NCBI RefSeq assembly: GCF_029210485.1
Contig: NZ_JARGET010000019.1
Coordinates: forward strand, 1-64,000
DNA from: Hoeflea sp. YIM 152468
GTDB lineage: Bacteria; Pseudomonadota; Alphaproteobacteria; Rhizobiales; Rhizobiaceae
DNA: 64,000 nt
Direction of reading: 5' to 3'
Shown here: one piece after another, positions 22,645 to 38,430 of the stretch
How the letters are laid out: each line of letters opens with the position of its first letter
How positions within the stretch are numbered: the stretch's first letter is position 1
Made by a program: the position numbers and the translations under genes
Notes under the pieces: generated by a model
What the model was told of the DNA's origin: nothing
Databases searched by the model: none
What the model saw: only the letters and a program-made list of their open reading frames with translations

Positions 22645-23217
22645 TCACATTCCTTGCGGTCCGCGGTTCATGGCGGCGATGCCGGTGCGGCAGATCTCGA
22701 CCAGGCCGAGCGGCTTCATGATCGAGATGAACTGTTCGATCTTGGACACCCGCCCGGTGATCTCGAAGATGAAATGCTCGGTGTTGGCGTCGATCACCTG
22801 AGCGCGGAAGGCATCGGCAAGCCGCAGCGCCTCGACCCGATTGTCGCCCGTTCCGGTGACCTTGACCAGCGCCAGTTCCCGCTCCAGCGCCTTGTCATAG
22901 CCGAGCTCGACCGAGCGTACAGACAAATCAACCACACGGTGGACCGGAACGATGCGTTCGAGCTGGGCCATGATCTGAGCCAGCACATGCGGGGTGGCGG
23001 TGGTGACAATGGTGATGCGCGAGAGGTGCGCCTCGTGCTCGGTCTCGGAGACCGTCAGGCTTTCGATGTTGTAGCCACGGCCGGAAAACAGGCCGATGAC
23101 CCGGGCCAGGACGCCGGGCTCGTTGTCGACCAGAACCGAGAGCGTGTGACTCTCCGGAAGAGCGGTTTCGGCGGTCATGAAATAGGCCGAACCGGTGGGT
23201 TGATGCTGAGCGTTCAT
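22645..23217 (-). CDS. ilvN: acetolactate synthase small (regulatory) subunit
   Basis: The 190-residue protein has an N-terminal ACT domain (HTLSVLVDNEPGVLARVIGLFSGRGYNIESLTVSETEHEAHLSRITIV, residues 20-70) and the conserved C-terminal domain (ELALVKVTG..., IFEITGRVSKIEQFISIMKPLGLVEICRTG). The ACT domain binds valine and confers feedback inhibition on the catalytic subunit. GAGGAAC precedes the ATG, 27 bp after ilvI. The two genes are co-transcribed under the ilv attenuator upstream. Confidence 0.96.
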   Translation of the reverse strand: MNAQHQPTGSAYFMTAETALPESHTLSVLVDNEPGVLARVIGLFSGRGYNIESLTVSETEHEAHLSRITIVTTATPHVLAQIMAQLERIVPVHRVVDLSVRSVELGYDKALERELALVKVTGTGDNRVEALRLADAFRAQVIDANTEHFIFEITGRVSKIEQFISIMKPLGLVEICRTGIAAMNRGPQGM

Positions 23218-23244: not shown

Positions 23245-25020
23245 TCAAACGAGCGCGCGGCCTTTGGCATCAATGGCGTTGGCGACGGCTTCGTCGGTGG
23301 CTTCATCGGGCAGCAGCATATCGTTGTGCGCCTTGCCCGACGGGATCATCGGGAAGCAGTTGGCAAGGGCTGCGACACGGCAATCGAAAATCACCGGCTG
23401 CGGCGTGTCGATCATGGTCTGAATCGCGTCATCAAGCTCGTCCGGCTTGTCGCAGCGGATGCCGACACCGCCATAGGCCTCGGCCAGCTTGACGAAATCG
23501 GGCATGGATTCGGTATAGGAATGCGACAGCCGGTTGCCGTGCAGCAATTGCTGCCACTGCCGCACCATGCCCATATACTGGTTGTTGAGAATGAAGATCT
23601 TGACCGGCAATCCGTACTGGACCGCGCAGGACATTTCCTGGATGCACATCTGGATCGAGGCGTCGCCGGCGATGTCGATGACCAGACTGTCCCGATGCGC
23701 CACCTGCACGCCGATGGCAGCCGGGAAGCCATAGCCCATGGTGCCGAGCCCGCCGGAGGTCATCCAGCGGTTGGGCTCCTCGAAGCCATAGAACTGCGCT
23801 GCCCACATCTGGTGCTGGCCGACTTCGGTGGTGATGTAGGTGTCGCGGTCCTTGGTCAGCTCATAAAGCCGCTGGATCGCGTATTGCGGCATGATGACGT
23901 CCTTGTTGGGCGTATAGGCCAGCGAATTGCGCGCTTTCCATTTGGATATCCGGGTCCACCACTCGGTCAATTGGCTGCTGTCGGTGGTCTTCGACGCGCG
24001 CCACAGCCGGACCATGTCCTCGAGCACATGACCGACATCACCCAGAATGCCGATATCGGTCCGGACGATCTTGTTGATCGATGACGGATCGATGTCGATG
24101 TGGATTTTCTTCGAGTTCGGTGAGAACGCATCCAGACGCCCGGTGATGCGGTCATCGAAGCGGGCGCCGATGCAGACCATGACATCGCAATCATGCATCG
24201 CCATGTTGGCTTCGTAAGTGCCGTGCATGCCGAGCATGCCCATCCAGTTCTTGCCTGACGCCGGATAGGCGCCCAGCCCCATCAGGGTCGATGTGATCGG
24301 AAAGTCGGTCAGTTCGACCAGTTCGCGCAGCAACTGGCTTGCCTCGCGGCCGGAATTGATCACGCCACCGCCGGAATAGATCATGGGACGCTTGGCGCCG
24401 GCCATCAGCTCGACGGCAGCCCGAATCTTCTCAAGGTCGCCCGAGACTTTCGGCTGGTAGCTCTTCTGCTCGATCACCGGCGATGGCGGGGTGTAGATGC
24501 CGGTGGCGAACTGGACGTCCTTGGGAATGTCGACGACGACCGGACCGGGACGGCCGGTGGTGGCGATGCGGAAGGCTTCATGGATGACGCGGGAGAGCTG
24601 ATTGACGTCCTTGACCAGCCAGTTGTGCTTGGTGCACGGCCGGGTGATGCCGACGGTATCACATTCCTGGAAGGCGTCGGAGCCGATCAGCGAAGTCGGA
24701 ACCTGGCCGGTGAGGCAAACGATGGGAATGGAATCCATCAAGGCGTCCTGCAGCGCCGTCACCACATTGGTGGCGCCTGGACCCGATGTGACCAGAACAA
24801 CCCCGGGCTTTCCGGTCGAGCGGGCGTAACCTTCGGCCATGTGACCGGCGCCCTGTTCGTGACGCACCAGAATATGCTCGATGTCTTCCTGCTGATGCAG
24901 TTCATCGTAAATCGGCAGAACTGCACCACCGGGATAACCGAAGATATGCTCGACGCCATTGTCCTTCAGCGCCTGCAGAACCATTTCCGCGCCTGTCATT
25001 TCCATTTGCTTGCCGGCCAT
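23245..25020 (-). CDS. ilvI: acetolactate synthase large (catalytic) subunit
   Basis: The 591-residue thiamine-diphosphate enzyme catalyses the first common step of valine, leucine and isoleucine synthesis. The catalytic glutamate lies in ILVRHEQGAGHMAEGYAR (about residues 47-65), FAD/substrate segments in the centre, and the TPP motif GDASIQMCIQEM...ILNN at about 450-480. The start MAGKQMEMTGAEMV (ATG 25020) has AAGGGG upstream. A leader peptide and attenuator lie immediately 5'. Confidence 0.96.
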   Translation of the reverse strand: MAGKQMEMTGAEMVLQALKDNGVEHIFGYPGGAVLPIYDELHQQEDIEHILVRHEQGAGHMAEGYARSTGKPGVVLVTSGPGATNVVTALQDALMDSIPIVCLTGQVPTSLIGSDAFQECDTVGITRPCTKHNWLVKDVNQLSRVIHEAFRIATTGRPGPVVVDIPKDVQFATGIYTPPSPVIEQKSYQPKVSGDLEKIRAAVELMAGAKRPMIYSGGGVINSGREASQLLRELVELTDFPITSTLMGLGAYPASGKNWMGMLGMHGTYEANMAMHDCDVMVCIGARFDDRITGRLDAFSPNSKKIHIDIDPSSINKIVRTDIGILGDVGHVLEDMVRLWRASKTTDSSQLTEWWTRISKWKARNSLAYTPNKDVIMPQYAIQRLYELTKDRDTYITTEVGQHQMWAAQFYGFEEPNRWMTSGGLGTMGYGFPAAIGVQVAHRDSLVIDIAGDASIQMCIQEMSCAVQYGLPVKIFILNNQYMGMVRQWQQLLHGNRLSHSYTESMPDFVKLAEAYGGVGIRCDKPDELDDAIQTMIDTPQPVIFDCRVAALANCFPMIPSGKAHNDMLLPDEATDEAVANAIDAKGRALV

Positions 25021-25077
25021 ATCGCCTGACCCCTTGTTCAGTCTGTTTGTCGGGCTCAATAGCCCGGTTTAAGCCAT

Positions 25078-25101
25078 AAAAAAAGGCCCCCGAAGGAGCC
25101 T
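25078..25101 (-). terminator. rho-independent attenuator upstream of ilvI
   Basis: On the minus strand AGGCTCC-TTCG-GGGGCCT forms a 7-bp stem (one G-U pair) with a stable UUCG loop, followed by a run of seven T (25084 down to 25078). It lies 58 bp before the ilvI start codon and after the leader peptide at 25134-25190, the exact geometry of an amino-acid attenuator. Confidence 0.85.
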
Positions 25102-25107
25102 GTGTTT

Positions 25108-25157
25108 CGCGCATGGGTGCTTTCGCCGGGTGGCTACGCCACCCTGCCCATGCGCGA
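25108..25157 (-). promoter_or_regulatory. nested leader hairpins of the ilv attenuator
   Basis: Two nested inverted repeats lie between the control codons and the terminator. The outer arms are CGCGCATGGG and CCCATGCGCG (10 bp) and the inner arms are GGGTGGC and GCCACCC (7 bp, 3-base loop). The outer 5' arm overlaps the last codons of the leader peptide, so a stalled ribosome on the Ile-Leu-Val-Val codons would block it. How this is coupled to terminator formation is not obvious from the sequence, because no clear antiterminator pairing with the terminator stem stands out. Confidence 0.7.
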
Positions 25158-25190
25158 TCCTACCACGAGAATGTTCGCAAACTTGTTCAT
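25134..25190 (-). CDS. ilv leader peptide
   Basis: An 18-codon frame reads MNKFANILVVGSRMGRVA and ends in TAG. The Ile-Leu-Val-Val run (ATT CTC GTG GTA) is the hallmark of branched-chain amino-acid leader peptides whose translation senses charged tRNA. It is followed at once by nested hairpins and an intrinsic terminator, then ilvI. There is no good Shine-Dalgarno sequence; the likely -10 element ends only 7 bases before the ATG, so the mRNA may be leaderless. Too short for gene callers and recognised here only by context. Confidence 0.85.
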   Translation of the reverse strand: MNKFANILVVGSRMGRVA

Positions 25191-25197
25191 GCCAGAA

Positions 25198-25226
25198 GTC
25201 GTACCGCCTCGCAAACCCTGCGTCAA
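25198..25226 (-). promoter_or_regulatory. candidate promoter for the ilv leader and ilvI-ilvN
   Basis: On the minus strand TTGACG (25226-25221) and TACGAC (25203-25198) are separated by 17 bases. The -35 element is near-consensus for the housekeeping sigma factor and the -10 element is weak. Transcription would start at about 25191-25190, that is, at or next to the A of the leader-peptide ATG. Confidence 0.5.
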
Positions 25227-25303
25227 CGGGTTTGTTGCCGCAATATTGCCTAAAAACGTTCAGTTTCCCAAGACTTGCAACGCCCCATTAACTTCGCAAT
25301 GCG

Positions 25304-27250
25304 ATGGTCGGGGCCATGGAAAACGGCAAGAGCATGGACAGCGAACCGACATCAACGACCCCGGAGCCGGAAGACGGCAGCGAACGCCGCGGCACATTTG
25401 CAGCCGGAAACCGGTTGATGGGCCGTGTGACCGGCTGCTCCGGATCGAAGGCGACCGTGAGCGCATTTGCCGAAAAAGACGGCAATGGCCTGGCGGAGCT
25501 CTGGTCGGTGGGCCGCCTGATTTCCATCAGTGTCGGCGCCAACCGGGTGGCTGCTCTGGTCTGCTCGATGCAAACGGCAACGTCATCCTGGAATGAAACC
25601 GACGAAAACGTCATGCATATCGATGTCGAGCTGGTGGGCGAGATTCGCACCGGCGTGAACGGCAAGACCGAGTTCAGCGCCGGCATATCGCAATATCCCT
25701 ATCTCGGTGCCGTGGCGCACCGTATGCGGTCGTCGGATCTGGCCGCGATTTACGATCCCGGCGTCAACGACACGGCCGTCATCGGCAAGCTGACCCAGGA
25801 CACCTCACTGGGTGCGCTCATTCATATTCCCTCGCTGCTGTCGCGGCATTTCGCTGTCGTCGGAACAACCGGTGTCGGCAAGACCACGGCGGTGACGCTG
25901 CTGGTGCACAAGGCCCTCAAGTCCGACCCCTCCCTGCGGGTGCTGATCCTTGATCCGCACAATGAATTCGCCGCCGCCTTTCCCACTGAATCGATCGTCA
26001 TCGATACCGATACGCTGGATTTGCCGTTCTGGCTGTTCAAGCTTGAGGAATTCACTGAAGTCCTGTTCCGCGGACGGCCGCCGATCATGGACGAGGTCGA
26101 CATTCTGCGCGATCTGATCCCTGAAGCCAAACGCATGTTCAAGGGCACAACCGACACGGCGCTGCTTCGTCGCGGGCCGGAAAAATCGTCGCTGACCGCC
26201 GACACCCCGGTGCCCTATCGGGTCGCCGACCTGCTGGCATTGATCGACGAACGGATCGGCAAGCTGGAAGGCCGGACAGAAAAGCCGTTCCTGCGTTCGC
26301 TCAAGGTCCGCGTGCAGGCCGCGATCAATGACCCGCGCTATGAATTCATGTTCTCGTCAAACACCATCCATGACACCATCCTGACGACAATCAGCCATAT
26401 CTTCCGCATTCCCGGAGACGGCAAGCCGGTCACCACGTTTCAGCTGTCGGGCATTCCTTCCGAGGTGGTCAACTCCGTCGCATCGATCCTGTGCCGCATG
26501 GCGTTCGAAATCGCGCTGTGGAGTGCCGGCGGCGTCCGCATCCTGGTGGTCTGCGAAGAAGCCCACCGTTACGTGCCGTCCGATCCGAAGCTTGGATTTT
26601 TCCCGACAAGGCAGGCCATCTCGCGGATTGCCAAGGAAGGCCGCAAATACGGCGTCAGCCTCGGCGTGATCACCCAGCGTCCCGGCGAACTTGATCCGAC
26701 GATCCTGTCGCAGTGCTCGACCGTGTTCGCCATGCGGTTGTCCAACGACCATGACCAGGACATCATCCGCTCGGCGATTCCCGATTCATCGGCCTCGACC
26801 ATGAGCTTTCTCTCCTCGATCGGCAATGGCGAGGCGATCGCTTTCGGCGAGGCGGTGGCGGTTCCCATGCGCATGATGTTCGAGCGGGTTCCCGAGAACG
26901 TGCTGCCGCGGGCAAATTCAGGTTTGCAACCGATACATCGCGGCGACCCGAATGCGGTGGACCTGACCAAGATCGTGAAGCGGATGCGGCATATCGACGA
27001 TACCCAAAAGCCTGCTGCACCGGCGGCTGACACGCTCACGCACCAGCAGCCTTCAATCGACCCGTCGGATGGATTTGACGTCGCGGCGGCTCATCGCCGC
27101 CTGTCCGACAGTCAATCGCGTCACAACCCCGCCTACCCGCCTCAGGACAGCGGGCCTGCGGCTCCGGCTCCCGCCACGCCGCGCAGCGAGTACAGCTCGA
27201 TCCGGTCGAGCCTGTTGAAAAAGCCGCTGTCTTCGCTGATCAAACCCTGA
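25304..27250 (+). CDS. HerA-like ATPase (DUF87)
   Basis: The 648-residue protein has an N-terminal beta-barrel (HAS-barrel, about 35-150) and a HerA/FtsK-type hexameric ATPase core. Walker A is HFAVVGTTGVGKTTAVTLLVHKAL (about 186-208), Walker B ILVVCEEAHRYVP (about 410), followed by SRIAKEGRKYGVSLGVITQRPGELDPTILSQCSTVFAMRL (sensor region). The C-terminal 80 residues are Pro/Ala-rich and probably disordered. HerA proteins pump or unwind DNA and often pair with a nuclease (NurA, SIR2 or others); none is adjacent. Start could also be ATG 25316. The 5' end overlaps the region upstream of the divergent ilv leader. Confidence 0.88.
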   Translation: MVGAMENGKSMDSEPTSTTPEPEDGSERRGTFAAGNRLMGRVTGCSGSKATVSAFAEKDGNGLAELWSVGRLISISVGANRVAALVCSMQTATSSWNETDENVMHIDVELVGEIRTGVNGKTEFSAGISQYPYLGAVAHRMRSSDLAAIYDPGVNDTAVIGKLTQDTSLGALIHIPSLLSRHFAVVGTTGVGKTTAVTLLVHKALKSDPSLRVLILDPHNEFAAAFPTESIVIDTDTLDLPFWLFKLEEFTEVLFRGRPPIMDEVDILRDLIPEAKRMFKGTTDTALLRRGPEKSSLTADTPVPYRVADLLALIDERIGKLEGRTEKPFLRSLKVRVQAAINDPRYEFMFSSNTIHDTILTTISHIFRIPGDGKPVTTFQLSGIPSEVVNSVASILCRMAFEIALWSAGGVRILVVCEEAHRYVPSDPKLGFFPTRQAISRIAKEGRKYGVSLGVITQRPGELDPTILSQCSTVFAMRLSNDHDQDIIRSAIPDSSASTMSFLSSIGNGEAIAFGEAVAVPMRMMFERVPENVLPRANSGLQPIHRGDPNAVDLTKIVKRMRHIDDTQKPAAPAADTLTHQQPSIDPSDGFDVAAAHRRLSDSQSRHNPAYPPQDSGPAAPAPATPRSEYSSIRSSLLKKPLSSLIKP

Positions 27251-37935: not shown

Positions 37936-38052
37936 GAACATTCCCCTTTGACTGGAACTCGACTCCACACGAGCCTCATCCGGTTGGCATTGAATGCGCA
38001 TGTTTCGCAATCGCAATTATGCTGTCAATAGCAAGTCCACCCGATTGCCCCC

Positions 38053-38081
38053 TTTTCATTGTACTGCAAGCACACTATATG
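38053..38081 (+). promoter_or_regulatory. candidate ssrA promoter
   Basis: TTTTCA (38053-38058) and TATATG (38076-38081) are separated by 17 bases, a reasonable sigma-70-type pair. Transcription would begin at about 38088, at the foot of the first stem of the tmRNA precursor. Confidence 0.45.
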
Positions 38082-38087
38082 AGGAGT

Positions 38088-38430
38088 GCTGCGCAAGCAG
38101 CTATGACAATAAACGAGCGTTGAAATAAACCATTCGGACCCGGGGGCGGTACCCGGCGCCTCCACCATGATCCGGCCACGAGCCGAAAACCAGCCTGACG
38201 GCCGGATGATGATGGGGGCGAAACAGGATCGACGAGGGTGTAAAGAGCGACTTTTTGTTCGGCATTGTACCACCGTTATCGGGCTAAACTTGTAGTTGCA
38301 AACGACAACTATGCGGAAGCTCGTCTCGCTGCTTAATTGCGGTGTGACACTTCAAATTAAGTCCTAGAGGGTCGCACTTCTAGGCGGGGTTCGGAGGTAC
38401 CTGGCAACAGAAACCTCCACTTTTCAGATT
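38088..38430 (+). ncRNA. ssrA: transfer-messenger RNA (tmRNA), circularly permuted two-piece form
   Basis: The gene is permuted. An acceptor piece comes first, beginning with a GCTGC-GCAA-GCAGC hairpin (38088-38101) and ending in GGCGCCTCCACCA (to 38167). A spacer follows (38168-38213), then the coding piece starting GGGGGCGAAACAGGATCGAC at 38214, whose first seven bases pair with CGCCTCC of the acceptor. The tag frame starts at GCA 38298 and encodes ANDNYAEARLAA before TAA (38334-38336). A GGAGGT/ACCTCC stem (38393-38418) and T-rich tail follow. tmRNA rescues stalled ribosomes and tags the products for proteolysis. Exact ends are approximate. Confidence 0.93.

Follow-up and report, generated by a model that had tools for sequence, protein, structure and literature searches.

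Related probable branched-chain amino acid attenuators upstream of ilvI and of an MFS transporter gene in Alphaproteobacteria

Two related attenuators of the branched-chain amino acid (BCAA) type are each common to ilvI and to one lineage of MFS transporter genes in Alphaproteobacteria, an association seen in related bacteria. The element studied here lies on the minus strand of a 64,000-nucleotide stretch of Hoeflea sp. YIM 152468 (contig NZ_JARGET010000019.1, positions 1 to 64,000; hereafter the window), upstream of ilvIH, and it is probably an unremarkable attenuator with an existing Rfam entry, which can now be read as cis-acting and as probably leaderless.

The element upstream of ilvIH

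All the features listed in a preliminary description made from the sequence, namely an 18-codon frame, nested hairpins, a TTCG-loop terminator with its T-run and then ilvI, are present on the minus strand. The leader ORF (MNKFANILVVGSRMGRVA, 18 codons plus TAG, 25134..25190) begins with the ATG at 25190-25188 and ends with the TAG at 25136-25134; the A of the ATG is 25190, which corrects the start position of 25191 given in that description. Its sensor codons ATT CTC GTG GTA (Ile-Leu-Val-Val) occupy 25172-25161, where they had been described. Downstream of these codons the fold pairs strand A (25147..25157) with strand B (25107..25117) in a long stem, and nested inside this stem is an inner hairpin formed by a 5' strand GGGTGGC (25138..25144) and a 3' strand GCCACCC (25128..25134), with the stop codon at its loop. 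Between the leader ORF and ilvI, motif scan and fold both mark an intrinsic terminator, GGCTCC-TTCG-GGGGCC followed by a T-run (25078..25101; hairpin 25101-25084, T-run to 25078). The ilvI gene (acetolactate synthase 3 large subunit, 23245..25020, minus strand, ATG at 25020; NCBIfam NF006581, 1208.5 bits; Pfam TPP_enzyme N, M and C) is followed by ilvH (acetolactate synthase small subunit, 22645..23217, minus strand; Pfam PF10369 and ACT domains). Ahead of the leader lie a -35 hexamer TTGACG (25226-25221) and, after a 17-nt spacer, a -10 hexamer TACGAC (25203-25198), which matches TATAAT at three of six positions and stands 7 nt from the ATG. Divergent from ilvI is a gene for a DUF87/HerA-type ATPase (25304-27250, plus strand), and the same pair of neighbours is annotated in S. 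meliloti (L302). Elsewhere, the window holds an alphaproteobacterial (permuted) tmRNA gene (38049-38421, plus strand).

A mechanical scan of positions 24900-25400 of the window found no sigma-70 promoter, and the single terminator-like site it yielded equals the shuffle mean of 1.0; single-sequence motif scores are therefore insufficient alone. The fold of the element has a z-score of -4.74, none of 200 shuffles being equally good, and taken together with conservation this places the element beyond chance.

The Rfam family RF02502, "Rhizobiales sRNA Atu_C8", matches 25188-25068 on the minus strand with 120.1 bits (E 5.2e-26; gathering cut-off 50 bits). The match is complete over model positions 1-122, and the boundaries are nearly equal to those of the element. 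Atu_C8 reportedly goes back to the 2012 work of Wilms in Agrobacterium. We found nothing on ilvI in PMC4201532 and PMC3927594, both by word search, nor in an excerpt of PMC3738593. One copy of RF02502 is present in the window's genome. Within its family (Rhizobiaceae) the model matches 381 of 394 genomes, 374 of them over the cut-off, and of the 13 genomes without a match ten are 2.0 Mb or smaller and three are 77-81% complete; across the order, 217 of 397 genomes match, 72 over the cut-off. We fetched 150 copies (30 and 120 further ones) among the matches listed, and the downstream gene is an ilvI homologue (at least 68% identity) in 139, and an MFS gene in 10, whereas the contig ends after one copy (L078). 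A leader frame was identified in 149 of these 150 copies; L108, which has no T-run by the rule used, was dropped, and L078 counts in neither gene class of the resulting 149 leaders. In three family f11 genomes two RF02502 elements stand about 2.7 kb apart, each followed by an ilvI-like gene (L085/L105, L095/L110 and L117/L119).

Leader codons, RNA start and termination

The run of Ile, Leu and Val codons is conserved. At least four such residues in a row are found in 129 of 138 ilvI leaders and at least three in 137, compared with 2.5% and 12% of random 17-mers of IlvI composition, although the run counts are biased upward because the leader frame was picked by this run; the choice among Val codons is free of that bias. 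The rare codon GUA accounts for 178 of 381 Val codons (47%) in the leaders, against 88 of 5069 (1.7%) in the downstream ilvI stretches. Rare sensor codons are expected of a sensor of charged tRNA. In 149 aligned rows (effective number 81), with ranking among column pairs at least 60% complementary, the top seven covarying pairs belong to the A:B stem, where covariation is strongest, and to the inner hairpin. The central idea of the preliminary description, an ilv attenuator with sensor codons, is supported by the conserved Ile/Leu/Val run and the GUA bias, with no antiterminator found. Given a short leader ORF with clustered Ile, Leu and Val codons before a BCAA gene, as in ribosome-mediated BCAA attenuators, the attenuator reading of the window element is well supported by sequence comparison.

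We consider it likely that the element is a ribosome-mediated transcription attenuator of the ilvIH operon acting from a leaderless or nearly leaderless RNA, a reading that builds on the component parts and how well they are conserved, on the biased codon choice, on covariation in the A:B stem and on the two promoter-spacing classes observed here. The RNA would start at the ATG or within about one base of it, and a ribosome would load on the 5' AUG and translate the 18-codon leader. If charged tRNA ran low, the ribosome would slow down at the Ile-Leu-Val-Val codons; the RNA downstream would then fold differently and allow the polymerase to read through the terminator into ilvI. In all other cases transcription would stop at the T-run, giving the RNA of about 110 nt that Rfam files as the sRNA Atu_C8.

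The spacing of the promoter bears on where the RNA starts. TTGAC, the core of the window's -35 hexamer, stands 34-39 nt ahead of the start codon in 55 of the 149 leaders (45 before ilvI, 10 before the MFS gene; 54 of 149 without L054, an artefact of start choice). Two biases enter this count: starts were chosen with a preference for ATG over GTG in both spacing classes, and a candidate at 34-39 nt was preferred where a frame offered a choice; 17 of the 150 loci have two or more candidate ATGs. At 35-38 nt there are 55 hits against 0.63 expected from the rate farther upstream. All 55 leaders of this class start with ATG, C is found at -1 in 89%, and a Shine-Dalgarno-like motif is seen in one (L120). 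In a further 66 of the 149 leaders TTGAC lies at 50-90 nt, and in this class GTG serves as the start in 15 leaders and a Shine-Dalgarno motif is present in 50. The other 28 leaders fall in neither class, with a Shine-Dalgarno motif in 14. The contrast between the two classes is the one expected if the 34-39-nt class is leaderless.

The window's leader, with a spacing of 36 nt, belongs to the 34-39-nt class. It has an ATG, lacks a Shine-Dalgarno motif and is preceded by a core promoter, poor in its -10, that ends about 7 nt ahead; its near-leaderless start is thereby supported at the level of sequence. The earlier proposal that the promoter spacing would put the RNA start at the ATG agrees with this comparison. 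The same attenuator could instead have a short 5' leader and a start other than Shine-Dalgarno, since with a weak -10 and no promoter by mechanical scan the RNA could begin some bases upstream. We regard this variant as unlikely, in view of the Shine-Dalgarno count of 1 in 55 at the short spacing versus 50 in 66 in the separate 50-90-nt class. On an IlvI tree of 135 stretches the 34-39-nt class needs eight changes as labelled, three of them forced by well-supported branches; the number is seven with L054 relabelled and five if five long rows are also omitted. Because several changes are needed, the way these leaders are initiated appears to have changed on at least two occasions. The family offers natural pairs in which one and the same operon has a predicted leaderless leader in one member and a Shine-Dalgarno-led leader in another.

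The step that would undo the terminator was approached with ribosome-masked partition functions, both for the full-length RNA and for RNA cut before the terminator 3' arm, and these found neither an antiterminator nor a coherent alternative helix. In the full-length RNA the terminator persists whichever codon the ribosome covers, and a probability below 0.5 at one codon or more is seen in 14 of 148 leaders. In the cut RNA, moving the ribosome from the stop to the sensor codons raises the occupancy of the terminator 5' arm by at least 0.25 in 2 of 149 leaders and lowers it by at least 0.25 in 39 of 149; for the window's leader the values are 0.04-0.21 at the sensor codons versus 0.71 at the stop, opposite to the expected direction. 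The test is a weak one, as among seven E. coli controls it was positive for trpL, hisL, leuL, pheL and thrL and negative for ilvL and ivbL. Covariation of the terminator 5' arm with upstream columns is also weak and unconvincing (C76-G88, with U-C in 6 rows versus C-G in 136). That no antiterminator was found would suit a plain terminator, or termination governed by something besides leader translation, and yet such a reading is highly improbable: the upstream neighbour at 25304-27250 is divergent, so that there is no same-strand upstream gene to terminate, and the codon bias of the leader argues against it as well.

Several known systems come close to the predicted attenuator. For S. meliloti, an excerpt of PMC2573895 records an "ilvIH cis regulatory" element upstream of ilvIH (SMc01431), citing Vitreschak 2004, and mentions neither a leader peptide nor a leaderless start; the RF02502 copy of this species (L302) has the layout of the window. 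Together with the Rfam match, this published element shows that the window element had been wrongly called unannotated. The Caulobacter crescentus ilvBN/ilvIH attenuator resembles the window element in having a terminator and a leader CDS in which Ile and Val codons stand in tandem, and the excerpt of PMC4117421 describing it leaves leaderless status unstated. In Corynebacterium glutamicum, which belongs to another phylum, an excerpt of PMC11857589 treats the ilvBNC attenuator as leaderless, like the one predicted here, and puts the start a single nucleotide away from the start codon of the leader (the wording "start of translation" in this text evidently means transcription). An antiterminator overlapping the terminator is worked out there, whereas none was found in the window. 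A leaderless ilv leader is already known as such in Corynebacterium, and the earlier idea that one would be new is wrong or overstated. Within the same bacterial family as the window, excerpts of PMC10117765 and PMC7298713 describe rnTrpL/peTrpL of S. meliloti, a leaderless leader ORF, as predicted for the window, and an attenuator RNA with trans roles shown; that system serves the trp operon with Trp codons, whereas the window has the ilv operon and Ile, Leu and Val codons.

These trans activities of the S. meliloti trp attenuator RNA and peptide (excerpts of PMC10117765 and PMC7298713), and the typing of RF02502 as an sRNA in Rfam, would fit a trans-acting sRNA from an independent gene whose position before ilvI is incidental. 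We find this improbable, given that 139 of the 150 fetched copies precede ilvI, ten the MFS gene and one a contig end, and that Ile/Leu/Val codons with a GUA bias are needless for an sRNA alone. The Atu_C8 RNA could additionally act in trans. The name under which RF02502 is filed covers neither the frame, nor the operon, nor the promoter class; under the reading favoured here, the Rfam "sRNA" becomes an attenuator that acts in cis and is predicted to be leaderless.

The RF02502 element before an MFS gene

Ten of the 149 leaders (L008, L019-L022, L025, L031, L033, L035 and L036) are followed by an MFS gene instead of ilvI, and further loci with RF02502 before the MFS gene are L286, L287, L289, L291, L293-L297, L300, L301 and L325. 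The idea that all second RF02502 copies serve ilvI paralogues was rejected, as one does (L032) and ten precede the MFS gene. In the L032 case, the second copy of its genome stands ahead of an acetolactate synthase gene whose product shares only 70% identity with the window's IlvI. At the MFS loci the ilv cassette is preserved in full, with its promoter, predicted leaderless ORF, A:B hairpin and terminator. The MFS leaders encode peptides such as MKIAMVLVVVIKRMGRMV and MMIENGMVVVGARMGTAA, and in all ten TTGAC lies 35-37 nt from the ATG. They share the stem core GCGCATGGGC, which is present in 10 of 10 MFS leaders, in 11 of 20 ilvI leaders of family f1 and in none of 118 other ilvI leaders. The distance from the T-run to the MFS start is 36-69 nt. 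The MFS protein is nearest to TIGR00710 (Bcr/CflA), with 207.3 bits for one protein (cut-off 200.9) and 169.1, below the cut-off, for another, both values coming from partial proteins.

In the order as a whole (397 genomes), the ten highest-scoring MFS matches, at 676-713 bits, coincide with the ten RF02502-led loci. At 20 weaker MFS places of the order (308-525 bits) an Rfam scan found no RF02502 over the cut-off; a TPP riboswitch is present at one of them (L188), and another leader attenuator at 8 of 20. In the 394 genomes of the family there are 13 MFS places, of which nine have RF02502, one (L290) the other attenuator form and one (L188) the TPP riboswitch, with nothing found at two. Plasmids carry the arrangement too: 12 of 14 plasmid records with the MFS gene, from Rhizobium etli, R. 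gallicum, R. lusitanum, other Rhizobium and Phyllobacterium, have the RF02502 element directly upstream by coordinates, and it was not found upstream of the plasmid MFS genes of Pseudomonas and Agrobacterium. Among the best 80 of 490 named MFS loci, 20 were scanned with Rfam and eight have RF02502 over the cut-off (one of them, L208, being locus L008 again); a motif scan applied to the full 80 picks out these same eight. Organisms with named MFS loci include Rhizobium lusitanum, R. sullae, Mesorhizobium sp. WSM4311 and Devosia ureilytica. The cassette is found in Rhizobium, Mesorhizobium and Devosia, and a restriction of the element to one genus was rejected.

On the MFS tree the Devosia proteins group with family f6. 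The ilvI leaders of f6 belong to the 50-90-nt class in 17 of 18 cases (the eighteenth is the L054 artefact), and none of the 18 contains the GCGC[AG]TGGG core. The five f6 MFS leaders, by contrast, all show both Rhizobiaceae features, and this points to a transfer of the MFS cassette. In titles and abstract openings of the open-licence literature we found no description of an ilv-type attenuator before such an MFS gene, and no such element was found at the distant MFS homologue of the window's own genome (L200).

TPP riboswitches stand upstream of related MFS genes in L188 (1244-1359) and L299 (1258-1374), which brings the kinds of RNA switch seen in this MFS lineage to three or more. As a separate observation, in E. 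coli K-12 (L168) emrD, the gene of an MFS multidrug pump, lies about 0.9 kb from the ivbL-ilvBN leader, a single case that may be coincidence.

A second attenuator form and the shared signal

A second form of attenuator is also found before both genes. Many of its leaders end in ...RMGR, ...CMDR or similar ahead of the stop, and CATGCGCC is conserved at the foot of the terminator. It precedes the MFS gene at L187, L192, L194-L198, L204, L213-L216, L219, L290, L303, L306, L308 and L310-L317, and ilvI, in family f74, at L304, L305, L307 and L309, where the leaders take the second form as in MKILVVVVGTTRMGR. We built a model, R1, from twelve second-form leaders, all from MFS loci, so that matches before MFS genes were expected and matches before ilvI were not. 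Among 385 genomes of the class, R1 gave 16 matches at E of 1e-6 or lower, one per genome in 16 genomes; 11 precede the same MFS gene, four precede ilvI (all in family f74) and one precedes neither. Eleven loci with weaker matches were examined: L325 precedes the MFS gene and is RF02502 (98.8 bits), and the other ten precede neither gene. R1 also matches the window's own element, weakly (E 0.0016), and it finds the eight first-form MFS leaders among the named loci. In the reverse comparison RF02502 gave one weak match alone (32.2 bits, E 0.012) at the 16 R1 loci, and at the second-form loci scanned no Rfam family scored over its cut-off. The second form is outside Rfam coverage.

On the MFS tree of 79 stretches (53 labelled by the attenuator or riboswitch seen and the rest chosen from those without, L300 and L224 being long rows), the first form requires 6 changes, against 12 for the second, which occurs on both sides of the midpoint root.

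From these sequence associations we moderately favour the reading that the MFS transporter answers to the signal that also controls BCAA synthesis, through two related attenuators with Val-rich sensor runs that ilvI and the MFS gene have in common. The shared signal would be scarcity of charged BCAA tRNA, or the stalling of ribosomes at the sensor codons. Such a transporter might rid the cell of ribosome inhibitors or of compounds that poison BCAA synthesis or the BCAA tRNA synthetases; alternatively, it could import a BCAA-related nutrient. The main interest of the attenuator lies in its shared use with a transporter, which is seen in relatives and not in the genome of the window. Both the trigger and the substrate of the transporter become directly testable in the rhizobia that carry the cassette.
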